Source of the DNA: a virus
Direction: 5' to 3' (one strand)
Virus record (IMG/VR): IMGVR_UViG_3300008120_000626
Coordinates: 1-34,243 of that record
DNA length: 34,243 nt
Below, piece by piece: positions 6,505 to 24,916 of the stretch. Each line of letters starts with the position of its first letter. Position 1 is the first letter of the stretch. The position numbers and the translations under genes were made by a program. The notes under the pieces are model-generated. The model had not been told where the DNA came from. It made no database searches and was given only the letters and a program-made list of their open reading frames with translations.

Positions 6505-8778
6505 ATGCCGCTAAATATTTTTGACGGTTCCAGTTGGAATCCTTTAAAAAAAATACAGATTCATGATGGCAACACATGGAATGAATCTAAAGCGGCATAT
6601 ATATGGGACGGATCCGAATGGAAATCCTTACTTGATCTAAAGCCAAAAAATACAGAACTTCCTATACTTTCATTGCAAGGAGGAGCTTTCTGGTATGCAG
6701 CACAAGAAACTGTTTCTGTTTCAAACGGTGTTTGGGAAAATTCTCCAACTTCATTTAAATATCAATGGCAAAAGGCAGCATGGACTGGATCTTCATATAG
6801 TTGGTCAGACATTGTAGGCAAAACATCTAACACACTATACCTAGATGAAGATGAATGGAATTCTACTAAAACATTAAAATACATTGGGTATGTTGTAAGA
6901 TGTAAAGTTACAGCTACAAATGCTGCTGGAGATAATGACCCAGATGTATTTACTTTGCCAAGTCCATTAATAGGTCCACAAAAACTTTCTATAGTATCTG
7001 CATCTGTAGTGTCAAACGGAATAATAAAAGTAGATTGGACAAAGCCAATTGGAGCAAATGATTTTTATATACAATATTCAGGTGCAGCTTCTGGAGAAAT
7101 ACAGCTTACTGGAGATGTAAATACATATGAGATAGATACTGGAAATGGAAGCGGCGGACTTTTGTTGTTAGTAAGACCACTAAATACATCTAATATTAGC
7201 GGAACTACGGTTCAAGGTATTGGTGCTAATGCATCTGTTTCTGATGTAAAGCCTAATAAGCCTGGAGTTACAACAACTATGTCTTCAAGCTCAAGTGGAG
7301 GAACCCTATCTTGGTCTTTAAACTTAATCCAGCCAACAGAATGGATTATTTATGATAATGGAGAAACAGAAACCAGTTCATATTTTTCTGGTGGAGCCAG
7401 CCAAACTTCTTATACTATTGATAGAATAGGAGTAGGAGGAACTACTTACGGATCATACACAATTACTGTAACTGGAACTGCACCAAGATTTACCGAAACT
7501 TCATGGTCTTCTTTCCCAGGGTTATCTATAGCATATCCATCAGTTCCTTTACCAGTAAATCAAGTTGCACCAACAGTTTCTGGAACTGGAAGATCATTTA
7601 CATCAACAAACGGAACATGGAGTAACTCAGGTTCAATATCTTCTTATATTCATGAATGGTATGCGGATGGTGTTAATATACCATTTGGAATTGGAAGCAG
7701 CTTAAATCTAGGTGATACAACACAATATGACAACAAGTCAATAACATCTTCTGTTTATGTATTGACCACTGATTTAAATACTACTTCAAAAACATATAGT
7801 AGTAACTCTGTTCAGTCTACTACAAAGGAAGCAGAAGAGCCTACTTCACCAGTTCAATATTGGGCATGTTGCAATAATGGAGATGGCGTAACTGGAACTT
7901 ATGCAAATAGCAGCGCAGCTCTTACAGGATTAAACTCAGCATGTGCTGCATCTGAGCCAGGAATTAATAATCAGGTTCAGGGAGGTGTATCTAGAACTCC
8001 AGTTTGCGTTCCTACAACTTATACTATTCCTAATTTAGTTGGAACATACAATCCTGCTAGCACATCAAGTTATAACATTTCAGTTGGAACAGCAGTAGGT
8101 ACAACTGACTATACTAAAGAGGGGCAAGTGTCTTCACAATCTCCAGTTGCTGGAACAGTTGTAAATGCATCCCCAATTCCTACAATTACAGTTTATAAAT
8201 TTACTTATCAAGCTCCACCAGATGAGCCTCCATCAAAGCCAGCATGCCCAGGAACAATAACAAATGCAGCAGCTTACACTTGTGCAGAGCTAGGAAGAAC
8301 ACTTCTTGGCAACTCTACATGCTGCAGTGATGGCGGAGGAGTAAGTGGAAGCTATACTTCTTCATCAGCTGCAGTTACTGGGCTAGGTGCAAAATGTTCT
8401 GAAAACGAATCATTTGTTACACTAAGCGGTGGAGTATATACAACTCCTCAAGGTTGCAATGCACCACCACCATTTTTCCCACCGAGCTTCTTCGCACCAC
8501 CAAGCTTCTTCGCACCACCAAGCTTCTTCTCGCCACCAGGGTTCTTCGCACCACCGAGCTTCTTCGCACCACCGAGCTTCTTCGCACCACCGAGCTTCTT
8601 CGCACCACCAAGCTTCTTCGCACCACCAAGCTTCCCAGCATTACCTACAACAGGTAAAACCTGTACATCTGCAAACATATCAATGGCTATATGTAATGGC
8701 GGAGGCTGTGACAATAGTGGATGTGCAACTGGAGCAACATGCAACAATCCGCAAAACTTTAGCGGAACAGGATGCTAA
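6505..8778 (+). CDS. Large adhesin: Ig-like, PASTA-like and Cys-rich domains with a Pro-Pro-Phe-Phe repeat
   Basis: 757 residues with an AAGGAG site. Order: N-terminal Trp-rich strand repeats (IFDGSSWNPLKKIQIHDG, then NTWNE and IWDGSEWKSL); several Ig/FN3-like beta domains to about residue 440; a cysteine domain (WACCNNGDGV ... RTPVC); a PASTA-like domain near residues 505-567 (YTIPNLVGTYNP ... GQVSSQSPVAGTVV); a second copy of the cysteine domain (TYTCAELGR is read as AYTCAELGR here, with STCCSDGGGVSGSY ... TPQGC); a hexapeptide PPSFFA repeat at residues 653-711; and a C-terminal segment with seven cysteines. PASTA domains bind peptidoglycan in other proteins, which would suit adhesion to a Gram-positive-type wall. 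The cysteines suggest a disulphide-stabilised extracellular particle protein. It has no signal peptide, as expected for a virion protein. Confidence 0.75.
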   Translation: MPLNIFDGSSWNPLKKIQIHDGNTWNESKAAYIWDGSEWKSLLDLKPKNTELPILSLQGGAFWYAAQETVSVSNGVWENSPTSFKYQWQKAAWTGSSYSWSDIVGKTSNTLYLDEDEWNSTKTLKYIGYVVRCKVTATNAAGDNDPDVFTLPSPLIGPQKLSIVSASVVSNGIIKVDWTKPIGANDFYIQYSGAASGEIQLTGDVNTYEIDTGNGSGGLLLLVRPLNTSNISGTTVQGIGANASVSDVKPNKPGVTTTMSSSSSGGTLSWSLNLIQPTEWIIYDNGETETSSYFSGGASQTSYTIDRIGVGGTTYGSYTITVTGTAPRFTETSWSSFPGLSIAYPSVPLPVNQVAPTVSGTGRSFTSTNGTWSNSGSISSYIHEWYADGVNIPFGIGSSLNLGDTTQYDNKSITSSVYVLTTDLNTTSKTYSSNSVQSTTKEAEEPTSPVQYWACCNNGDGVTGTYANSSAALTGLNSACAASEPGINNQVQGGVSRTPVCVPTTYTIPNLVGTYNPASTSSYNISVGTAVGTTDYTKEGQVSSQSPVAGTVVNASPIPTITVYKFTYQAPPDEPPSKPACPGTITNAAAYTCAELGRTLLGNSTCCSDGGGVSGSYTSSSAAVTGLGAKCSENESFVTLSGGVYTTPQGCNAPPPFFPPSFFAPPSFFAPPSFFSPPGFFAPPSFFAPPSFFAPPSFFAPPSFFAPPSFPALPTTGKTCTSANISMAICNGGGCDNSGCATGATCNNPQNFSGTGC
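8461..8634 (+). repeat. 18-bp tandem repeat encoding PPSFFA
   Basis: About 9.5 in-frame copies of an 18-bp unit (GCACCACCAAGCTTCTTC with CCA/CCG wobble) encode the hexapeptide PPSFFA, with PPGFF and SPP variants. The stretch is visibly more GC-rich than its AT-rich surroundings. It contains about ten Pro-Pro pairs. Several long open frames on the other strands here are by-products of the repeat. The 18-bp periodicity makes copy-number change by slippage likely. Confidence 0.95.
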
Positions 8779-10146: not shown

Positions 10147-11385
10147 ATGGCAACAGTAGTAAAGAATTTTAGAATTAAAAGTGGCCTTATCGTCGAAGGC
10201 GCAACAGGTACAATCGGCGGCCAAAATATACTTACAGAGACAGGCGGAAACGCCTATATCCTCAACCTCGTTGGTGGAGCAACTCTTGTAAAGTCTGTTG
10301 ATGCAGGCGTATTTAATGTTGATGGTGCTGGTAACCTCACAGTAAATGCAAATACATTTGATTCATACGGATCAGCCTCAGCAGCTCAAGCAGCAGCAAT
10401 ATCAACTGCAGCATCAGATGCAACTTCAAAGGCAAATGCAGCACAGTCTGCAGCAATTACTGCAGCAGCAACAGATGCAACATCTAAGGCTAACGCAGCA
10501 CTTGCATCAGCAAATACTTACACAGACGGAAAGGTTGCAGATCTTGTAGATTCTGCACCAGAACTTCTAAATACTCTTAATGAGTTAGCAGCAGCACTTG
10601 GTGATTCACCAGATACCATTTCTAACTTAACAACATTAGTTGGAACAAAAGCTAATTCATCTGATGTAACAGACGGACTTGCAGGTAAGCAAGATACGCT
10701 AACTGCAGGATCAAATATTGACATTACAGGATCAACTATTTCTGTAACTGGCCTTGATTCAGCAGATATATCAGACTTTAACACAGCAGCCGTTGCAGCA
10801 ACAGCAGCAGCATACGATATGTATGGTGCAGCAGCAGCAGCACAAGAAGCAGCAGAAGACTACGCAGACGGACTTGCAATCAACTACGATGCAGCAGGTT
10901 CTGCGTCAGCAGCACAGAATGCAGCACAAGGATACGCCGATGGTCTTGCCGTAAACTACGATGCAGCAGGTTCTGCGTTAGCAGCACAGACTGCAGCAGA
11001 AGCAACTGCAGCAGCAGCTAATACAGCTCAGCAAAACGGCACAACAGCATTCACAGCGCTAAATGTAAATGATCAGGCAAAGCAAATTGCAGCATCATCT
11101 TCTGGAACAGCAACAGTTCCTGGAACAGCTTATCAGTGGGCAAAGGCTGACTATCGTTCAGCTAAGCTCCTTGTTAAAATTGACAATGGAACACACAATG
11201 AAATTTCAGAAATCCTAGTAACCCTAGATTCATCAGATAACGTAGCAATTACAGAATATGCAATTGTTGGAACTAATGGATCAAGAGGAACAATTACAGC
11301 AGAAGTATCTGGTGCAAATGTTATCGTAAAGGTTACACCAACAGACAACTCAACAGTTAAAGTATCTGGAACATTACTTAAGTAA
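10147..11385 (+). CDS. Ala-rich coiled-coil tail fibre protein
   Basis: 412 residues with an AAGAGGAG site. N-terminal VKNFRIKSGLIVEGATGTIG is a strand-rich fibre head. The long middle is extremely rich in Ala and Gln with repeats such as YDAAGSASAAQNAAQGYADG and SDATSKANAAQSAAITAAA; related short Ala-rich repeats occur in the fibres starting at 4915 and 11881. These are expected to form a trimeric coiled-coil shaft. FNTAAVAAT and QDTLTAGSNIDITG are beta inserts. The C-terminal 85 residues form the same kind of small beta tip domain as in the preceding gene. Runs of GCA codons make this region prone to length variation. Confidence 0.8.
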   Translation: MATVVKNFRIKSGLIVEGATGTIGGQNILTETGGNAYILNLVGGATLVKSVDAGVFNVDGAGNLTVNANTFDSYGSASAAQAAAISTAASDATSKANAAQSAAITAAATDATSKANAALASANTYTDGKVADLVDSAPELLNTLNELAAALGDSPDTISNLTTLVGTKANSSDVTDGLAGKQDTLTAGSNIDITGSTISVTGLDSADISDFNTAAVAATAAAYDMYGAAAAAQEAAEDYADGLAINYDAAGSASAAQNAAQGYADGLAVNYDAAGSALAAQTAAEATAAAANTAQQNGTTAFTALNVNDQAKQIAASSSGTATVPGTAYQWAKADYRSAKLLVKIDNGTHNEISEILVTLDSSDNVAITEYAIVGTNGSRGTITAEVSGANVIVKVTPTDNSTVKVSGTLLK

Positions 11386-14912: not shown

Positions 14913-15686
14913 ATGTCAAAAAATATAGGTAGAAGAGCATCAGCTCAAGACAACTTCATTGGCCCAGATGCACCAACTGGGCTAACCGCAGCAGATCATT
15001 TAAATGGAGTTAATAACCAACGGAACTTTAACGATGGAATGATTAACCTTTCATGGACAGCACCTGCAGCAGGAAATGCACCAACCCAATACAAAATCTT
15101 TAGAAGCGGAGTAGAGGTAGGAACAGTAAATGCTCCTACTACTACCTTCTCTAATACTGGACTAGTTGGTGGCACTTCTTACTCTTACACAGTAAAAGCA
15201 GTTGATCTTTATGGAACATCAGTAGACTCTAATACAGCATCAGCTACAGCAACAACAAAGCCAGCTGCCCCAACAAGTGCTTCAGCAACAGCTGGAGTTA
15301 ATGCAAATACAGTTCAGTGGGCAGCACCTGCAACAGGTGGAAAGCCAATCACTAACTACTTTGTTCAAGGTAATGATGGAACAACTGGAAATACAACTAA
15401 CTTATCTATATCGATATCAGATACTGCTGGAACATCACAGTATTATAACGTATACGCAGATAATGCTAATGGAAGATCTGCTGCATCAAATAACTCTAAT
15501 ACAGTTACTACGCTTGCACCGTCGTTCTTCTCTCCACCGTTCTTCCCACCGTTCTTCCCACCAGGGTTCTTTGCCCCACCAGGGTTCTTTGCCCCACCAA
15601 GCTTCTTTGCCCCACCAAGCTTCTTCTCCCCACCAGGGTTCTTCTCCCCACCGAGATTTGGCTTTACGGGCCTAAGAGCTTACTAA
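14913..15686 (+). CDS. Two-FN3-domain virion protein with Pro-Pro-Phe-Phe C-terminal repeat
   Basis: 257 residues with a TAGGAGA site. After a short polar N-terminus come two fibronectin type III domains: residues about 19-112 (PDAPTGLTAAD ... INLSWTAP ... YKIFRSGVEVG ... YSYTVKAVDLYG) and about 114-200 (PAAPTSASATAG ... VQWAAPATGGKPITNYFVQG). From residue about 202 the protein becomes a Pro/Phe repeat (SPPFFPPFFPPGFFAPPGFF onwards) with eight Pro-Pro pairs, ending in a short basic tail. FN3 domains on tail or capsid surfaces help weak adhesion to carbohydrates. It is the last gene before the dioxygenase operon, separated by a hairpin and a promoter. Confidence 0.8.
   Translation: MSKNIGRRASAQDNFIGPDAPTGLTAADHLNGVNNQRNFNDGMINLSWTAPAAGNAPTQYKIFRSGVEVGTVNAPTTTFSNTGLVGGTSYSYTVKAVDLYGTSVDSNTASATATTKPAAPTSASATAGVNANTVQWAAPATGGKPITNYFVQGNDGTTGNTTNLSISISDTAGTSQYYNVYADNANGRSAASNNSNTVTTLAPSFFSPPFFPPFFPPGFFAPPGFFAPPSFFAPPSFFSPPGFFSPPRFGFTGLRAY
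15523..15654 (+). repeat. Second Pro-Pro-Phe-Phe coding repeat
   Basis: Imperfect 12- and 18-bp units encode PPFF, PPGFFA and PPSFFA. The peptide is nearly that of the repeat at 8461-8634, but codons differ: here TTCTTTGCCCCACCA and TTCTCCCCACCA, there TTCTTCGCACCACCA. The two arrays are therefore not a simple recent copy of each other. Confidence 0.9.
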
Positions 15687-15697
15687 AAAATAAAAAA

Positions 15698-15727
15698 ACA
15701 ATAGCAGGGGGAAACCCCTGCTATTGT
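15698..15727. terminator. Perfect 13-bp hairpin with GAAA loop, between fibre and dioxygenase units
   Basis: ACAATAGCAGGGG, loop GAAA, CCCCTGCTATTGT: a perfect stem with a stable tetraloop. The + strand lacks a T-tract after it, while the A-rich stretch before it (15684-15698) would give a U-tract on the - strand. By classical rules it is thus a better terminator for - strand transcription, though it probably also ends the upstream + strand mRNA. Confidence 0.75.
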
Positions 15728-15758: not shown

Positions 15759-16472
15759 ATGACAAATTTTAATAACAATTATTTATTTTCTTCAAAAGAG
15801 CAGCTTGCTCCTGGTATTTGGGTTTATCGAGATGTAATTAAAAAAGAAATCAATGTGATTGATAGATTAAATAAAATTGGAGAATCTGCTATTAGAGATG
15901 GAGACTCCAGGTACGAATGGACTTTTGGCTTTGTAGGTTATAGCGAAAAGAGACCTTCATACAGGGATTGTGAAGATATTAAAGTTGGTGAAGTTGTAAA
16001 TATTAATTCTGAAACAGAAAATTTAGTCAATGATCTATGGCGGGATTTAAAAAATCATCAGTCTCCAGCAGTGGATGATTATTGTGGAATGTATAATGTA
16101 AAAATGAACTATTGGGAAGTTATGAATTGTATCCGCTATGGCAAGGGTCAGCATTTCCAAGAGCATGCAGATCATGGATTTTCATACAGCGCTACAGTTT
16201 CTTTGGTAGCATATGTCAATGATGATTATGAAGGAGGAAACCTTTATTTCCCTAAATTAAATTTAGACATTAAGCCAAAGGCGGGAGACCTATACATATT
16301 CCCATCTACATATTTATTTTCACATAGAGCAATGCCAGTTGAATCTGGAATGAAGTTTTCAATTGTTACTATGCTAGATTATAATGATCATGCACACAGA
16401 CCAGAGTTTATGCAAATGAGAGCAAAATGGGTTGAAGAAGATTCAAAAACTGGTAAAAATTCTCATGTATAG
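15759..16472 (+). CDS. Prolyl-4-hydroxylase-like 2OG-Fe(II) dioxygenase 1
   Basis: 237 residues. Members of this superfamily use Fe(II), O2 and 2-oxoglutarate to hydroxylate protein prolines or other substrates in the cytoplasm. The double-stranded beta-helix core is clear: iron ligands His136 and Asp138 (QEHADH), distal His189 (FSHRAMP) and the 2-oxoglutarate-binding basic residue Lys199 ten residues later. Between them lies the family stretch YVNDDYEGGNLYFPKL, then KPKAGDLYIFPS. Residues 1-100 are a variable N-terminal lid. The closest family architecture is the 2OG-FeII_Oxy_3 / P4H alpha-subunit type. It is the first gene of a five-dioxygenase operon and probably translated from a leaderless mRNA. 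The substrate cannot be read from the sequence; adjacent Pro-Pro-rich fibres are candidates. Confidence 0.88.
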   Translation: MTNFNNNYLFSSKEQLAPGIWVYRDVIKKEINVIDRLNKIGESAIRDGDSRYEWTFGFVGYSEKRPSYRDCEDIKVGEVVNINSETENLVNDLWRDLKNHQSPAVDDYCGMYNVKMNYWEVMNCIRYGKGQHFQEHADHGFSYSATVSLVAYVNDDYEGGNLYFPKLNLDIKPKAGDLYIFPSTYLFSHRAMPVESGMKFSIVTMLDYNDHAHRPEFMQMRAKWVEEDSKTGKNSHV

Positions 16473-17211
16473 GATAGAAGTATTTAATACTAGAGAGTGC
16501 CTAGGAGTACTTGAACCACTTTCTGCAAAAAGAAGTTGGATGGAAGAGACGTTTGAGTCTCATGCCTATAAATGTTTTCCAGTTAGCCTAACAAATCAAT
16601 TGGGATGGGGAATATCTTTTCCAGAAGACATATCTTTTATTTGGGATGGAATATCTGATAGCAGTTCAGATCATGTAAAAATATTATCTGGAGAAAAATA
16701 TGCTTATCCTGGCAGAGCGAATGCAACAATTAGTTTTTATAGTGGACTAGTTTTTAAAACCAGTGAAAATTTAAGTCTATTATCAATGCCAGTACCAAAT
16801 TTATTTATTGATGGTGCAGTTCCATTTACAACACTAATTAGTAGTTCGTTTTTTACAGGAGAGTTGCCTATTGCCTGGATGATAACAAAACCAAATGAGG
16901 TTATAACAATAAAAGCTGGGACCCCAGTTATATCTGTAATGCCAATAGATTTAGAGTCATTGAATAATTCAGAAATGATTTTTAAACCACTTTCTGAATT
17001 CCCAAAGCCAGTATATAATGATATAGAAAATCCTAATGACTACTCTGAAGCTATTAGAGCTTTAAATCAATCTGGAACATGGTCTAACTTCTACAGAGAC
17101 GCAGTTGATCATTTAAAAAGAAAAATTGGCTCTCATCAGGTAAAGTCAATAAGATTAAAAGTTAATAATGCTATAATGAGTTATGGAGGCAAAAATGAAA
17201 GCACAAAATGA
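16465..17211 (+). CDS. DUF6065-like protein inside the dioxygenase operon
   Basis: 248 residues from ATG 16465, which overlaps the preceding stop by 8 bases (ATGTATAG). A longer reading from TTG 16432 would add 11 basic residues with no ribosome site. RSWMEETFESHAYKCFP, SLTNQLGWGISFPEDI and FTGELPIAWMITKPNEVITI resemble, from memory, the DUF6065 family, whose function is unknown. VITIKAGTPVISVMPIDL suggests a cupin-like beta-barrel, but no complete metal triad is obvious to me. It is translationally coupled to dioxygenases on both sides, so a role in the same pathway (accessory, second-step enzyme or substrate binding) is inferred. No membrane segment or signal peptide. Confidence 0.7.
   Translation: MYRIEVFNTRECLGVLEPLSAKRSWMEETFESHAYKCFPVSLTNQLGWGISFPEDISFIWDGISDSSSDHVKILSGEKYAYPGRANATISFYSGLVFKTSENLSLLSMPVPNLFIDGAVPFTTLISSSFFTGELPIAWMITKPNEVITIKAGTPVISVMPIDLESLNNSEMIFKPLSEFPKPVYNDIENPNDYSEAIRALNQSGTWSNFYRDAVDHLKRKIGSHQVKSIRLKVNNAIMSYGGKNESTK
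17169..17177 (+). promoter_or_regulatory. Possible internal extended -10 promoter
   Basis: TGCTATAAT matches the extended -10 used elsewhere in this phage. It lies inside the end of the DUF6065-like gene, 17 bases before ATG 17195, so it could boost the four downstream dioxygenases independently. No convincing -35. Confidence 0.4.
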
Positions 17212-17869
17212 TTGGGCTGGTAAAGCACCTAAGTCTATAACTCCATCTGGATTTTTTGGGAACTCTTCAGACAATATTGTTGAAATAAAAGATTTTCTTT
17301 CTTTAGAAGAAAGAGAAACGCTAATGAATTTTGCATTAAACAATAAAATTTGGGATATTACAGAAACACATAGAGATGAAGATGGGCTAGTTTTATACGA
17401 CCATACAATTTGGGAAGATCGTGTATGTACGTACAACTCTCTTATGGCCTCAGACCCAAGCATACTTGAGTTAATATATAGCATGATAAATAGATTAAAA
17501 ATAGAAGTAGATGCATTTTTTAACGTAGATGCAAAAGAGACTGGACCAGCAATTGTGCGTTGGCCAGTAGGAGCAAGGCAAGAGCCTCATGCAGACAAAG
17601 AGTTTCATTCTGGACCAGAAAAAGGAAGGCCAAACGACTTTCCATGGTATGATCTAGCTGGACTATTTTATTTTAATGACGACTATGAAGGCGGAGAACT
17701 TTATTTCCCTCAACACGGAATTGAATTTAAACCAGTAGCTGGAGCAGCATATTTTTTTCCAGGCGACATGAATTATACGCATGGAGTTAGGCCAGTTAAA
17801 TCTGGTAATAGATTTACGTCGCCATTTTTTTGGACGATAACTAAGCATACAGGAGAAAGACAGCCATGA
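17195..17869 (+). CDS. Prolyl-4-hydroxylase-like 2OG-Fe(II) dioxygenase 2
   Basis: 224 residues. ATG 17195 is chosen over in-frame ATG 17183 because GGAGG sits five bases before it. Iron ligands are His132 and Asp134 (EPHADKEF) and His196 (YTHGVRP); Arg206 (SGNRFTSPFFW) is the 2-oxoglutarate anchor. The core stretch FYFNDDYEGGELYFPQHG then KPVAGAAYFFPGD is the best family match of the five. The N-terminal part (EIKDFLSLEERETLMNFALN) is the usual helical entry of P4H domains. It overlaps the previous gene by 17 bases and the next by 4 (ATGA), so expression is coupled. Sequence outside the core differs strongly from its neighbours, so these are diverged paralogues or independent acquisitions, not recent tandem copies. 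Confidence 0.9.
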   Translation: MKAQNDWAGKAPKSITPSGFFGNSSDNIVEIKDFLSLEERETLMNFALNNKIWDITETHRDEDGLVLYDHTIWEDRVCTYNSLMASDPSILELIYSMINRLKIEVDAFFNVDAKETGPAIVRWPVGARQEPHADKEFHSGPEKGRPNDFPWYDLAGLFYFNDDYEGGELYFPQHGIEFKPVAGAAYFFPGDMNYTHGVRPVKSGNRFTSPFFWTITKHTGERQP

Positions 17870-18681
17870 GCAATTTAGAATATGTAGAGATTTACCCAAA
17901 TATAGATGTATACAGAAATGTTTTGAATAACCCATCTGAACTTTATGCAACAATGAATGAGTCAGAAAAAAAATCAAATGGTAAGTATTTTTTGAAAGCT
18001 TGGGATCAGTGGTCACATTTTGGAACATATACGCAAAAAAAAGAGATGTCAGAATGCTCGACAGACATAGTTAGCTCTGAAATGTTTATAAAAGAAAAAG
18101 CCTTTGTTGATGAGATAGAAGACGCATATACTAAGGTTGTTTTAGATTATGTAGAAAGACACAATATTGATCTTCCAGAAGGATGGCGTTTTAGCGGATG
18201 CTCGTACTCTAAATATAATGCAAAAATAGATATGCTTCAGAACAATATGACTATGCAGTATCATACTGACCACATTACGTCTCAAAGAGACATGCCTGGA
18301 GACAAGTTCTTTTTGACATGCACCATGTATATTAATGATGACTATGATGGTGGAGATATAGAGTTCTACGTAGATGGCAAATTTATAAATCACAAACCAG
18401 TTTCAGGAGATATCCTAGTATTTCCTTCTGTTGAACCATATTTTCATGGTGTTAAAACAATTAATACAAATGAAAAGTTTTTTGTTAGAAACTTTATAAT
18501 GGTTCCTCATAATGGAACAGAAGAATGGCTGGCTAATCAAAGACGTTATGGTGCATACAAGTGGGCACAAATGGAAGCCAAAAGAATAGACTATGAAGAT
18601 AAAAGAAACATGGTATATTTTAAAGACGGATCTGTTGTCTCATACGAAGAGTATAACCCTCAAGATATGGGAGGGCAATAA
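17866..18681 (+). CDS. Prolyl-4-hydroxylase-like 2OG-Fe(II) dioxygenase 3
   Basis: 271 residues, the longest of the set. Iron ligands are His133 and Asp135 (YHTDHIT), distal His194 (YFHGVKTI) and the basic anchor Lys204 (NEKFFVRNF). The core reads MYINDDYDGGDIEFYVDG then KPVSGDILVFPS. The N-terminal 130 residues include many aromatics (WDQWSHFGTYT). The C-terminal 45 residues beyond the barrel (WLANQRRYGAYKWAQMEAK) form an extra charged helical tail not present in dioxygenases 1, 2 and 5. The start overlaps the preceding stop (ATGA). The divergent insert and tail suggest a different substrate from the others. Confidence 0.86.
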   Translation: MSNLEYVEIYPNIDVYRNVLNNPSELYATMNESEKKSNGKYFLKAWDQWSHFGTYTQKKEMSECSTDIVSSEMFIKEKAFVDEIEDAYTKVVLDYVERHNIDLPEGWRFSGCSYSKYNAKIDMLQNNMTMQYHTDHITSQRDMPGDKFFLTCTMYINDDYDGGDIEFYVDGKFINHKPVSGDILVFPSVEPYFHGVKTINTNEKFFVRNFIMVPHNGTEEWLANQRRYGAYKWAQMEAKRIDYEDKRNMVYFKDGSVVSYEEYNPQDMGGQ

Positions 18682-18684
18682 AAT

Positions 18685-19437
18685 ATGGAAAGAGAAATGG
18701 TTATAACAAGACATAAAGAAGACATTGTGTCTTATGACAACTTTCTTACCAAGCAAGAATGTGAAGCAATTATAAATGTGTTAGCAATTAAAATGGAAAA
18801 AGATCAGCTAAGATGGATGCCAATTTCTTTTTATGAGTCATACTCTTCTGGAACTCCAGAACTAAATGACCCAGACACAATTGCCTGTGGCTTGCCAGGA
18901 GATTTTTTTCAAGACCTTAGACAAAGAGTCATAAACGCAACAGCAGATATGGCTGGCAAAGATCCAGAACAAATGTCTCAAATAAGCTGGCATTCACAAA
19001 GATGGGCACCAGGAGCATTTGCCAATATGCATTCCGATAATACTTCAAATGAAGGTGTATCTGGAGCATTTACTAGAAGTAGATACGCAACCTTTCTGTA
19101 TTTAAATGACGACTTTGAAGATGGAGTACTAAACTTTAAACACGGATTAACAATCGTTCCTAAAACTGGAACCCTTGTAACTTTTGCTGGTGGTTTTCAT
19201 AATATGCATGAAGTTACTACGGTTAAAAAATCAATACGATACACACTTGGATCATTTTGGGATGACAGAGAAGAAGAAGATTATCCTCAAGAAGTTAGAG
19301 ATGCCTGGGCCGCAGAGCTTGCTGAAGTTAGGGCAATGCAAGCAGAACAAGCCATAGAGTGGGAAGACTACAGAAATAAAGGCATAAGAATAACACCTAA
19401 AGGCGAACAGTATCCAGCATCAGAAGTAGAGGGATAA
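18685..19437 (+). CDS. Prolyl-4-hydroxylase-like 2OG-Fe(II) dioxygenase 4
   Basis: 250 residues. Iron ligands are His116 and Asp118 (NMHSDNTS), distal His175 (NMHEVTTV, with a further His at 172) and anchor Arg185 (SIRYTLGSFWDD). The core strand is FLYLNDDFEDGVLNFKHG, slightly divergent from the EGGxLxFP consensus, followed by PKTGTLVTFAGGFHN. RWAPGAFANMHSDN is a classic P4H entry to the first ligand. A C-terminal charged helix (AAELAEVRAMQAEQAIEWED) extends past the barrel, as in dioxygenase 3. It begins 3 bases after the previous stop with GGGAGGG upstream. Confidence 0.87.
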   Translation: MEREMVITRHKEDIVSYDNFLTKQECEAIINVLAIKMEKDQLRWMPISFYESYSSGTPELNDPDTIACGLPGDFFQDLRQRVINATADMAGKDPEQMSQISWHSQRWAPGAFANMHSDNTSNEGVSGAFTRSRYATFLYLNDDFEDGVLNFKHGLTIVPKTGTLVTFAGGFHNMHEVTTVKKSIRYTLGSFWDDREEEDYPQEVRDAWAAELAEVRAMQAEQAIEWEDYRNKGIRITPKGEQYPASEVEG

Positions 19438-19438
19438 C

Positions 19439-20089
19439 ATGCAGAATCAAATAGAGTTCAAACAATTTGTAATGTTTGATTTACAAGTGCTGGATCCACA
19501 AATATGGTATTGGGAAAATGCTCTTAGCTATCCAGAACATTTAAAACAGTTTATTGAAGAAATAGACTCAGATCCGCTTTCATATAAAAGAATATCAAAA
19601 TGGGAAAACTGGACGGCAAGCGACGATAGCTCTTTTGTATATGGTGCTACTAAAAATATAATCACCTCTAATTTAAAAGATACAACTGGATCTGATTCAA
19701 TAGATAAAAAAACACTATATATTGGAAATAGCTTTTCGATGGCATTTGAAATGTGTTCAGAAAGATATCTATCTGGACACGGATTAGATAAAAATAATTA
19801 CAATTTACCACTAAGCAAATTGCCTATTAAAAAATGGAATCAAGGTCAATACATGGGGCCTCATTTTGATGGACAAGACGGAGACTCTACTTTAGCATTC
19901 TCTCTTGTTGCATACATAAACGATGATTACGAGGGAGGGGAAATTCATTTCCCAAATCAAAATATCACACTTAAGCCAAAGGCTGGAAGCATGATTATGT
20001 TCCCCTCACAACTTCCATACCTACATGAAGTAAAGCCTATTATTTCTGGCACAAGGTACATGAGCCCAGCACATGTATATATTAAGTAG
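19439..20089 (+). CDS. Prolyl-4-hydroxylase-like 2OG-Fe(II) dioxygenase 5
   Basis: 216 residues. Iron ligands are His142 and Asp144 (GPHFDGQD), distal His196 (YLHEVKPI) and anchor Arg206 (SGTRYMSPAHVY), again with ten residues between the last two. The core reads AYINDDYEGGEIHFPNQN then KPKAGSMIMFPS, closest to dioxygenase 1. The N-terminal 130 residues contain an aromatic lid (WYWENALSYPEHLKQF). It starts one base after the preceding stop, with GAGGGA as ribosome site. It is the last gene of the operon; a fresh promoter for the collagen-like fibre follows within 25 bases. Confidence 0.88.
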   Translation: MQNQIEFKQFVMFDLQVLDPQIWYWENALSYPEHLKQFIEEIDSDPLSYKRISKWENWTASDDSSFVYGATKNIITSNLKDTTGSDSIDKKTLYIGNSFSMAFEMCSERYLSGHGLDKNNYNLPLSKLPIKKWNQGQYMGPHFDGQDGDSTLAFSLVAYINDDYEGGEIHFPNQNITLKPKAGSMIMFPSQLPYLHEVKPIISGTRYMSPAHVYIK

Positions 20090-20109: not shown

Positions 20110-21222
20110 ATGAGCACAACAGGCAAAGGGTTTAGATACCCACAATATACAGATACTCCAGATGTCCCTAGAGACCTCGGATACCTTGCCGCTGATGTAG
20201 ATGCCTATCTGGATGATCATCCTGGCCCACAGGGCCCTTCAGGAACCTTAGAAATAGGTACTGTAACAACTGTTAGCGCATCAACTCCAGCCTCTGTAGT
20301 AAATGTTGGAACCCCAGAGGCTGCTATACTCAATTTAGTTTTACCAAGAGGTGTCGATGGAATAATTGGTGGGCCAGGCCCATCTAATGTTTTATCAATA
20401 GGAACTGTTGACCAAGGCGTGTCTGCAAGTGCAACAATAACTGGAACTAGCCCATCTCAAGTATTGAATTTAGTTTTGCCACAAGGGCCTGCGGGTCCAC
20501 AAGGGCCACAAGGGATACAGGGCCCTACAACCTTAGCAGTTGGAACAACTACAACAGGTGCGGCTGGAACAAATGCTTCAGTAGTTAATACTGGAACAGC
20601 TACAAATGCTGTATTTGCATTTACGATTCCAAGGGGGGCAACTGGTGCAACAGGTGCTCAAGGACCACAAGGAATTCCTGGATCAAGCGCAACAATAGAT
20701 CCAATACCAACAACTATTTCATTAAACATACCTACAACATCTGGTTATGGAGTAAATTCAAACTGGTATCCACTAGCAAACAACTTATACTCAATAGGCC
20801 AGCCTATAGATGCAGGTGCTGGAGTAGCATCAAATAGATTTTGGAAAACAATATACTCTAACACAGGAACAATAAATACATCTGACGAAAGATTGAAAAC
20901 AGGAGTTTCTGACTCACTTCTCGGCTTGGACTTTGTTAATTCTTTACGTCCAGTTAGCTATAAATTTATTGAAGGCGGTAAAGAAGTAGTTGACGGAGAT
21001 ATAGTTTCAGTTCCTGGAACAAGAACTCATTACGGATTAATAGCACAAGAAGTTAAAGAGGTTTTAGATCAGTCTGGAGTAGAAGATTTTGCGGGATGGG
21101 TAAAAATAGACATGTCTCAAGAAGACTCAATGCAGGGATTAAGATACGATCAATTTATTTCACCACTAATAAAAGCAGTTCAAGAGCTTACAGCGAGAGT
21201 TAAAGCCTTAGAAGAGAATTAA
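20110..21222 (+). CDS. Collagen-like tail fibre with S74 intramolecular chaperone
   Basis: 370 residues. Three Gly-X-Y tracts (residues 39-45, 126-140 and 176-193, for example GPAGPQGPQGIQGP and GATGATGAQGPQGIPG) should form short collagen-like triple helices separated by beta segments (ASVVNVGTPEAAILNLVLPR type, repeated three times). The C-terminal 115 residues are an S74 endosialidase-type chaperone: SDERLK at 258-263 holds the Ser/Lys dyad for self-cleavage, followed by LRPVSYKFIEGG, HYGLIAQEVKEVL and LRYDQFISPLIKAVQEL. The chaperone drives trimer folding and is then cut off. Prolines are mostly in the X position of the triplets; only GIP has Pro in Y. The gene directly follows five P4H-like enzymes. 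Confidence 0.92.
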   Translation: MSTTGKGFRYPQYTDTPDVPRDLGYLAADVDAYLDDHPGPQGPSGTLEIGTVTTVSASTPASVVNVGTPEAAILNLVLPRGVDGIIGGPGPSNVLSIGTVDQGVSASATITGTSPSQVLNLVLPQGPAGPQGPQGIQGPTTLAVGTTTTGAAGTNASVVNTGTATNAVFAFTIPRGATGATGAQGPQGIPGSSATIDPIPTTISLNIPTTSGYGVNSNWYPLANNLYSIGQPIDAGAGVASNRFWKTIYSNTGTINTSDERLKTGVSDSLLGLDFVNSLRPVSYKFIEGGKEVVDGDIVSVPGTRTHYGLIAQEVKEVLDQSGVEDFAGWVKIDMSQEDSMQGLRYDQFISPLIKAVQELTARVKALEEN

Positions 21223-23113: not shown

Positions 23114-23452
23114 ATGGAAATCTTAAATCAAAAAAGTCAAGTTATCGAAGAGACAACTCTAGGAATATATGTTTGGGAAATGCCAGACGGACGCTGGATT
23201 GGTGACGATGATGGTAACTTCTTGTCTATAACATCTAAAAAGGGTAATCGTTCTAGAATGGCTACGCTAGCAGATGCTGTAAGACACTATGGTATTTATG
23301 AGGGACAACCAAAATTTTTAGCGGGCAGACGCAAAATAGATGATGAAGAGTTTGAGTATCAAAACCAAAGACTAAAATGGGGACTTACACCAGACCCATT
23401 AGATATTGGAGAATATAAAGATTCAGTTCTTCGAGGGGGCTCAGTAACATGA
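23114..23452 (+). CDS. Hypothetical protein preceding the portal
   Basis: 112 residues, soluble, rich in charged residues. GIYVWEMPDGRWIGDDDGNF and KKGNRSRMATLADAVRHYG suggest a small mixed alpha/beta domain; the remainder (KWGLTPDPLDIGEY) looks disordered. Its stop overlaps the portal start (ATGA). In many actinophages the terminase or a small head gene sits here, but I see no ATPase or nuclease motif, so it is not a terminase. Function unknown; head assembly is inferred from position. The start is ATG 23114, predicted to be translated from a near-leaderless mRNA. Confidence 0.7.
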   Translation: MEILNQKSQVIEETTLGIYVWEMPDGRWIGDDDGNFLSITSKKGNRSRMATLADAVRHYGIYEGQPKFLAGRRKIDDEEFEYQNQRLKWGLTPDPLDIGEYKDSVLRGGSVT

Positions 23453-24916
23453 CACAATTTTTAGAAGATGGCCCAGAAGATTCTTACGAGGTATCTGTAA
23501 AAAATAGCTCTGATTTATTTTCTTTTAAGAAAGAAAAAGAGCACGTCGATCCATTTGCAATAGGCATAGAAGAACTTAAAAAAGTAAGAGGCCTTGGCAC
23601 AAACTTTAAGAGAAAAGTAAATAGAGATTTTGCAAAATCATTTACTGGCAAAGACGGAGCAGCAACACAGCAGAATTTATTGCAGCAGGCGGTAACTGGC
23701 TACGCTATGTTTGACCTTGTTCAACCAATATATAATTTAGAGTATCTTTCACAAGTATACGAAGTATCAACATATAACTATGCAGCAATCAATGCAAAGG
23801 TTGCAAACATAGTTGGGCTAGGATATTCGTTTTCTGAAACAAGAAAAACCAATGACGCAATTGACGCAATATCAGACAACAAGCAATTAGAGAGAGCCAG
23901 AAGAAAGCTTAATAAGTTAAAGCAAGATCTTCAGGAGTGGATTGATTCTACTAATGATGAAGACACTTTCACAGAAACTTTAATTAAAGTATATACTGAT
24001 TTAGAAGCTACAGGCAATGGATACATTGAAATAGGAAGAACCACAGCAGGAGACATAGGATATATTGGTCATATCCCAGCTAAAACAATGAGAGTAAGAA
24101 GACTTCGTGATGGATTTATGCAATTGCTTTATGGCAAGGCTGTATTCTTTAGAAACTTTGGAGACCTAGAAACACCAAATCCAATCGGTGATGTAGAAGA
24201 TAGACCAAATGAAATTATTCATCTCAAGAAGTACACTCCAATGAATAACTATTATGGCATTCCAGACATAGTAGCAGCCCAAGTACCACTTGCTGGAAAT
24301 GAATTTGCTGGCAGATATAACCTGGACTACTTTGAAAATAAAGCGGTCCCAACCAGCAGACACTCAAGATAATAAAGTAGAATTTAAAATGGAGCCAGTC
24401 GAGGCTGGAGCCCAAGAGTCATCATTTAATGTATATAGACAGTCTAATAGAGATGAAATTTTATTGGCCCACAGAGTTCCAATTACTAAAATTGGAGTCC
24501 CAGAAGGAGTATCGCTTGCGAATGCTCGTGATGCAGACAAGACATTTAAAGAGCAGGTCTGTAGACCAGCACAAATGAGACTTGAAAAAAGAATTAATGC
24601 AATAATTGAAGAAAAAACAGATGCTCTAAAAATTAAATTCGAAGAGCTCACTTTGACCGACGAAGATACGCAATCTCAAATAGATGAAAGATATTTAAGA
24701 ATGCAGGTAATTACCCCTAACGAAGTTAGAATTAGAAAGGGTATGATTCCAGTAGATGGCGGAGACGAAATGGTTGAATTAAAACCTCAGCAGGCAGCAG
24801 ATCAAAGAGCAACTGCTGGCAAAACTAGGGCCAGAGATTCAGAGAGATCCGCAGCCTCTCCAGACAAATCAGGAGAAGCAAGAAATCCAAAAGGCGACGG
24901 CAGTCAAGTCGACTGA
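23449..24916 (+). pseudogene. Portal protein gene with an internal deletion and frameshift
   Basis: The portal forms the dodecameric ring through which DNA enters the head. The first part (23449 to about 24351, 301 residues) is a good PBSX/HK97-type portal: YNLEYLSQVYEVSTYNYAAI, ATGNGYIEIGRTTAGDIG, HLKKYTPMNNYYGIPDIV, FAGRYNLDYFENKAVP. It then runs into six unrelated residues and a stop at 24370-24372. Portal sequence resumes one frame over at about 24353 (PADTQDNKVEFKMEPVEAG ... SNRDEILLAHRVPITKIGV ... DADKTFKEQVCRP) and continues to 24916. From memory of the family, roughly 35-40 residues (a stretch like RYVI..., ending GLKG..HRT...PLP) belong between AVP and PADTQ. They are absent, and the missing length is not a multiple of three. 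An in-frame ATG at 24290 lies in the wrong frame upstream of the junction and is unlikely to be a true start. Confidence 0.85.

Follow-up and report, generated by a model that had tools for sequence, protein, structure and literature searches.

Why does a tailed phage carry five different oxygenase genes beside the genes of its fibres? The question is raised by IMG/VR record IMGVR_UViG_3300008120_000626, a linear 34-kb fragment of a tailed phage that was analysed over its whole length of 34,243 nucleotides (the window). Five 2-oxoglutarate-Fe(II) (2OG) oxygenases, named OG1 to OG5 here, are encoded directly behind a virion protein that ends in repeats of the pattern PPxFFx. Few genes without an explained function are as common in aquatic viruses as those for 2OG-Fe(II) oxygenases, and the viral use of prolyl 4-hydroxylase (P4H) "remains cryptic" according to a 2022 survey (PMC9301287). 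We propose, with a probability of roughly 0.73, that these genes form a dedicated cassette for the hydroxylation of virion proteins, with the proline/phenylalanine (P/F) repeat tails as its target. The genes concerned are the following.

6505..8778, plus strand: 757-residue structural-type protein with C-terminal PPSFFA repeats, second probable substrate (translation, Tandem Repeats Finder (TRF))
8461..8634, plus strand: PPxFFx tract of the 6505 product (TRF, translation)
14913..15686, plus strand: fn3-domain virion protein with terminal PPxFFx repeats, main probable substrate, directly 5' of the array (PF00041, E=3.6e-10; PHROG tail protein)
15523..15654, plus strand: P/F-rich tract (PPFFPPFFPPGFFAPPGFFAPPSFFA...) of the 14913 product (translation, TRF)
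15759..16472, plus strand: OG1, 2OG-Fe(II) oxygenase with a predicted prolyl-hydroxylase fold, core member (PF13640, motif, model)
16465..17211, plus strand: DUF6065 protein, core member, weakly predicted dUTPase-like beta-clip fold (PF19541, model)
17183..17869, plus strand: OG2, 2OG-Fe(II) oxygenase of the Arg type, core member (PF13640, motif, clade)
17866..18681, plus strand: OG3, 2OG-Fe(II) oxygenase of the Lys type (PF13640, motif, clade)
18685..19437, plus strand: OG4, 2OG-Fe(II) oxygenase of the Arg type (PF13640, motif, clade)
19439..20089, plus strand: OG5, 2OG-Fe(II) oxygenase (PF13640, motif, clade)

All five oxygenases score above the gathering cut-off of PF13640 (2OG-FeII_Oxy_3; 53.0, 33.1, 32.2, 32.9 and 45.1 bits for OG1 to OG5) and retain a complete HxD...H...K/R site, so that an earlier, sequence-only reading of this DNA was right to call five such enzymes intact. 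It was also right about Pro-Pro repeats in both fibre genes, where TRF detects 8.7 copies of an 18-bp unit at 8479-8634 and 5.3 copies of an 18-bp unit at 15557-15652. Two of its statements need amendment. The oxygenases, described as standing in a row, are indeed clustered, but an overlooked gene for a DUF6065 protein lies between OG1 and OG2 (PF19541, 93.1 bits against a cut-off of 26.6, E=2.5e-26; the reading frame opens at TTG 16432, with ATG 16465 the likelier start). The basic residue does lie ten residues past the distal His in 5/5, but this is a normal distance in the family and nothing special to the array, since the motif occurs in 873 of 888 relatives with the basic residue at this distance or one position further on. 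Pairwise identities among the five are 18-31%, and they belong to five distinct clades with class-typical basic residues (Lys in 138/139 for OG3, Arg in 173/176 for OG2 and 141/145 for OG4), a pattern that, as far as sequence can tell, fits specialised enzymes and a possible division of labour, such as the one enzyme per site or repeat type that the sequence-only reading suggested. Ratios of non-synonymous to synonymous substitution against four relatives are 0.03-0.12 for the oxygenases, which indicates strong purifying selection and therefore genuine working genes; for DUF6065 they are 0.09-0.16.

The link between enzymes and repeats was examined from several directions. An enzyme-blind scan of IMG/VR for DNA encoding (PPxFFx)3 yielded at least 117 new loci. 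Among the matches listed, a 2OG gene is present in 97 of 117 loci; it lies within 3 kb downstream in 63 of the 67 that extend at least 3 kb in that direction, and upstream in 1 of the 63 with 3 kb of upstream sequence. Control loci with the collagen pattern Gly-Pro-x (GPx), collected the same way, contain a 2OG gene in 10 of 120, again among the matches listed. For listed loci of at least 6 kb the comparison is 75/85 for PPxFF versus 8/89 for GPx (Fisher 2.7e-28, a value that overstates independence because many loci come from related phages). A second sample was anchored on the portal gene and blind to repeats; the portal query came from a phage lacking the array, and each locus was read for at least 8.5 kb upstream. 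It comprises 8 loci with both features, 17 with neither, 3 with one or two 2OG genes but no repeat, and 2 with the array only, which show no repeat because their DNA ends at the array start. On the portal tree (60 rows) the state of the array changes nine times. Six independent pairs lie on well-supported branches, and in all six the repeats change together with the array (p = 0.031, the minimum attainable with that number of pairs). A third sample was anchored on DUF6065 proteins at least 52% identical to that of the window; a 2OG gene lies within 5 kb in 67/67 of these loci, and a P/F-repeat protein lies upstream in 34/34 of those with enough upstream DNA. Array and P/F repeats are gained and lost as a unit. 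The sequence-only reading had named as a refutation that such arrays be equally frequent in phages without Pro-rich or collagen-like structural proteins, and this four-sided test brought no refutation of the link.

These associations bear directly on the usual reading of phage 2OG oxygenases, which in cyanophages is nitrogen metabolism or DNA repair (PMC3037559). In lagoon viruses the function of these enzymes is unclear (PMC13184970), and in pelagiphages they are co-located with ferrochelatase (PMC9599517). By such precedents the oxygenases of the window would be auxiliary metabolic genes that act on host 2-oxoglutarate, iron or nitrogen metabolism, on host proteins or on small molecules, and the fibre region would simply tolerate insertions. 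We regard this as improbable, since a metabolic role predicts no link to a single repeat protein, whereas the link found is near-absolute, directional and present in two unrelated phage lineages. It also reaches down to the tail of one protein, which a metabolic role would not lead one to expect: homologues of the fn3 protein in array-less phages have Gly-rich tails of the common phage type, without P/F repeats. Judged by their sequences, array-bearing and array-less phages have the same fn3 carrier with a different tip.

What the cassette minimally contains emerges from 143 loci where the repeat protein is followed by three or more genes; each oxygenase there was assigned to one of the five clades. 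OG1 is present in 143, DUF6065 in 142, OG2 in 134 and OG3-OG5 in 95-106, the lower counts arising partly because contigs end. The commonest order, found in 58 loci, is repeat protein, OG1, DUF6065, OG2, OG3, OG4, OG5. A second lineage, identified through PHROGs (L168, L180, L184, L211, L219 and others), is contractile, with tail-sheath genes and other capsid and portal PHROG families; a T4-like gp23 capsid search of this lineage gave no match, and neither did the control genomes. Its layout is a short PPxFF protein, OG2 on the opposite strand, OG1 and DUF6065. Because its OG1 and OG2, and in some members OG3, fall within the clades of the window, the module has moved between unrelated phages, a recurrence that the sequence-only reading had missed. 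The PPxFF protein, OG1, OG2 and DUF6065 are the shared core of two unrelated tailed-phage lineages.

The joint gain and loss of the whole set, and the presence of additional 2OG genes at other places in the genomes, could also mean that the components of the set (repeat protein, oxygenases and DUF6065) are co-inherited as a host-range module because all suit the same kind of host, with the enzymes never touching the repeat. This seems very improbable to us, as it leaves unexplained why the shared minimum of the two lineages is exactly repeat protein, OG1, OG2 and DUF6065, and why the fn3 protein has another kind of tail where the array is lost. Hydroxylation of the repeat tails by the cassette is the reading we retain.

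Two lines of evidence concern the enzymes and their candidate substrate. In the predicted structure of OG1 (predicted local distance difference test, pLDDT, 91.9), the best 50 PDB matches are prolyl hydroxylases (50/50, with PHD2 over-represented in the PDB). They include PHD2, Bacillus anthracis P4H, Chlamydomonas P4H with (Ser-Pro)5, PBCV-1 P4H and Pseudomonas putida P4H. A sequence search of solved structures likewise places B. anthracis P4H first (E 2e-7), with PBCV-1 P4H weaker. The modelled OG1 fold, a double-stranded beta-helix, is thus predicted to be closest to prolyl hydroxylases. The second line is the repeat itself. Across 1145 hexads, P1, P2, F4 and F5 are practically invariant while positions 3 (mostly G/S/A) and 6 (mostly A/S/G) vary. 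The carriers resemble virion proteins of the fn3 tail type, and the end of one from L168 reads, by sequence, as a tail-fibre chaperone of the Peptidase_S74 type. Further variant repeats occur, for example FPPFFPPHF. The single full-length record that has the array without the PPxFF pattern (G020, 120 kb) carries the variant tract FPFFPPYFPYFPPYF (FPFFPPYFPYF) right before it; it was dropped as a case of an array without repeat, the variant tract sitting at the expected place.

Phe is as fixed as Pro within the repeat, and PF13640 is not confined to prolyl hydroxylases: lysyl hydroxylases, among others, also belong to it, and LH3 and PiuC are weak sequence matches. Five or more distinct enzymes also exceed the need of simple 4-hydroxylation, and an AurF-like or luciferase-like oxygenase is an extra component of some cassettes. 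The enzymes might accordingly act on the P/F repeats in another way, through oxidation of Phe or of the x residue, cross-links or a multi-step modification. We consider this possible though unlikely: the best matches of OG1, structural and sequence alike, are prolyl hydroxylases, and in the variants FPPFFPPHF and FPFFPPYF the aromatics vary more than the prolines.

From the coupling we infer that the P/F tract is hydroxylated. The cassette would be expressed late in infection, alongside the tail genes, and its oxygenases would use Fe(II), O2 and 2-oxoglutarate on repeat residues before or during virion assembly. The most likely targets would be both prolines of each PPxFFx unit, and the peptide PPGFFAPPSFFA is a candidate ligand of OG1 and OG2. 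These two enzymes would hydroxylate prolines of the tract on the new fibre, with OG3-OG5 adding or refining positions; the enzymes may split positions or products among them, such as first versus second Pro or C3 versus C4, and DUF6065 may assist as an adaptor or assembly partner. The modified tract would be exposed on the virion, where stiffness, solubility or host-surface binding could be altered, and the likely outcome would be host-contact fibres whose adhesive tail is stiffer, less greasy or open to glycosylation.

A possible extension of this scheme comes from the glycosyltransferase family GT60 (PF11397), a gene for which lies just 3' of the repeat protein in L068, L168, L176 and L553. 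The GT60 enzyme Gnt1 puts N-acetylglucosamine (GlcNAc) on Skp1 only once the proline has been hydroxylated (PMC6939170), and by analogy a GT60 behind the repeat protein may hint that hydroxyproline can anchor a sugar here. As a general member of the cassette GT60 was rejected, there being no significant record-level enrichment (6/50 versus 2/50), and it is kept as a hint.

Prolyl hydroxylases act on extended Pro-rich peptides, as is established for the algal and PBCV-1 enzymes, and in the extensin-type proteins of plants and algae the hydroxyproline is subsequently glycosylated. The plant and algal system (Chlamydomonas P4H-1, PDB 2JIG/3GZE) resembles our locus in the P4H fold, predicted here for OG1, and in an extended Pro-rich repeat substrate, probable here, but it serves cell-wall proteins of the secretory pathway, has no genomic cassette and has a substrate without the FF pair. 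The Skp1 system (PhyA plus Gnt1) pairs a P4H with a GT60 GlcNAc transferase, and in four of our loci a GT60 gene lies behind the repeat protein; the Skp1 system differs in modifying a single site of a cytosolic protein in protists, and GT60 is missing from the window and from most cassettes. Closest among viruses is PBCV-1 vCPH (PDB 5C5T), a virus-encoded enzyme of small P4H fold and one of the best structural matches of OG1. It belongs to a eukaryotic algal virus with one enzyme, no array and no DUF6065. PBCV-1 P4H is sequence-specific on Pro-containing peptides and is suspected to act on viral Pro-rich proteins; what the chlorovirus enzyme does for the virus has yet to be established (PMC7019647). 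Phage 2OG genes annotated as auxiliary metabolic (PHROG 61 and 81, in cyanophages and pelagiphages) are of the same superfamily. One genome can hold several copies that are not orthologous, and in some cases these are co-located (PMC9599517, PMC3037559); the difference is that no linked substrate protein has been described. Collagen-like phage tail fibres, finally, are likewise repetitive Pro-containing virion proteins, with GPx repeats that are rarely near 2OG genes.

Several observations weigh against hydroxylation of the repeat prolines. PBCV-1 P4H is active, yet no hydroxyproline was found in purified virions (PMC7019647). The TM-scores of OG1 to prolyl hydroxylases are moderate (0.50-0.62), and the structure-based assignment of the fold covers OG1, OG2-OG5 being assigned by the PF13640 profile, with scores below that of OG1. 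The coupling itself is compatible with a substrate other than the repeat, or with the Phe or x residue as target. GT60 is absent from the window and its record-level enrichment is not significant. In addition, L434 and L478 have a diverged DUF6065 and 2OG genes without a P/F repeat, so these two are not exclusive to P/F repeats.

Viral protein hydroxylation is already known, and the system of repeat, oxygenases and DUF6065 has a fair chance of categorical novelty. No earlier report of this link was found in the open-access literature searched, closed-access papers and preprints lying outside the search. We put at even odds the wider proposition of a transferable multi-enzyme phage system whose sole purpose is a dense hydroxyproline pattern, in some phages probably extended by sugars, on a dedicated PPxFF adhesive tail, with DUF6065 as a new scaffold or accessory factor; this would be the first dedicated hydroxylation system of tailed-phage virions and a new receptor-contact material. 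For the P4H question the cassette offers a concrete candidate for the substrate, together with a delimited group of enzymes and one partner protein. If the proposal is true, phage virions bear enzymatically hydroxylated, perhaps glycosylated, adhesive repeats, the annotation of part of the 2OG class moves from "metabolic" to "virion maturation", and DUF6065 acquires its first functional context.

DUF6065 is not mentioned in the open-access literature searched. Its model (pLDDT 90.1) has weak dUTPase matches (E 7e-4, TM by target 0.60-0.68), a sequence search of the PDB gave no match, and a trimeric beta-clip protein as partner of trimeric fibres is speculation. The second-lineage DUF6065 had no match in cultured phages, and the distant DUF6065 of L434, used as query, found its own sequence as the sole match. 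L434 and L478 also hold other enzyme-like genes, and DUF6065 could possibly be a partner for other cargo there. Three collagen-pattern loci (L277, L297 and L372) contain DUF6065 together with 2OG genes, and DUF6065 may accompany the hydroxylation of other repeat proteins.

The module is set within a recognisable phage background. The major capsid protein of the window is 59-62% identical to those of Streptomyces phages (Stanwilliamsviridae), a relation that makes freshwater Actinobacteria the candidate hosts. The stretch from ribonucleotide reductase to portal, which is short and without oxygenase in the cultured relatives, is enlarged in the window by fibre-type genes and the oxygenase cassette. 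Among cultured phages, even the closest sequences to OG1 stay below 40% identity and cover 78% at most, and a tblastn search of the repeat protein against cultured phages returned only Listeria fn3 matches; the 6505 product has no match in Pfam or PHROG. The carriers of the PPxFF-repeat and oxygenase set are uncultured freshwater phages. A bacterial origin of the repeats was considered and rejected: 257 Gb of genomes contained 13 pattern matches, 0 of them near a 2OG gene, and most of the 13 look like chance low-complexity reading frames. Two further features flank the oxygenase genes.

15698..15727, plus strand: 13-bp stem-loop in the interval between fibre gene and array (z = -7.0)
20110..21222, plus strand: Peptidase_S74 tail fibre with short Gly-X-Y tracts, array neighbour, probably no substrate (PF13884, E=4e-14)

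From OG1 through the S74 fibre, adjacent genes overlap or are separated by gaps of at most 20 bases and so look like a single transcription unit, from which the stem-loop sets the repeat-protein gene apart. A sigma-70 promoter scan across the array found no more sites than in shuffled sequence. In relatives the hairpin shows paired changes on both arms (AGGGG/CCCCT versus AAGGG/CCCTT). Of 93 spacers at this place, 23 contain a long hairpin. The Gly-X-Y fibre gene at 20110-21222 had been recognised by the sequence-only reading, which proposed a dedicated hydroxylation module for both kinds of fibre. The tie to Pro-rich fibres is supported; the collagen-like substrate is not, and the S74 fibre was rejected as a co-substrate, as Gly-X-Y tracts do not follow the array (2/10 array-positive versus 1/17 array-negative loci) and collagen loci are seldom linked to 2OG genes (10/120).

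Other 2OG genes and oxygenases accompany the cassette in places. Near-complete relatives (L408, at G019:10000-24000) have, distant from the fibre region, six more 2OG genes in a second and looser group, with no P/F-repeat protein close by. In the second lineage a luciferase-like monooxygenase (PF00296) or an AurF-like N-oxygenase (PF11583) lies near the oxygenases (L168:6984-7790, L184:9358-10473).

Some 50 of 120 distinct PPxFF proteins run from the last repeat, often through PPGFC followed by D/E-x-T, into a Hint/intein-like domain (L033, L071, L158, L169, L226, L406 and others). Pfam matches of these ends are below cut-off (PF01079, PF14890, PF13403) and the Cys is absent in some; self-cleavage or coupling of the repeat end is possible, to judge from the sequence. 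Short-tailed PPxFF proteins, including that of the window (15670-15686) and its relatives, have in common a C-terminus of the kind GLRAY, FIRAY, FIRSY or LRFY.

The window also differs in length from its relative L009. Its portal gene (23449-24916) is broken into two frames, while L009, a 99.9%-identical record, has an intact portal of 527 residues; the window is 116 bases short at 24352/24353, probably through an assembly error or a small deletion. It has 206 bases fewer than L009 at 8319, before the first PPSFFA tract, and a change of repeat length at 10381-10489 in the 10147 gene, both as expected from unstable repeats or the assembly of repeats.

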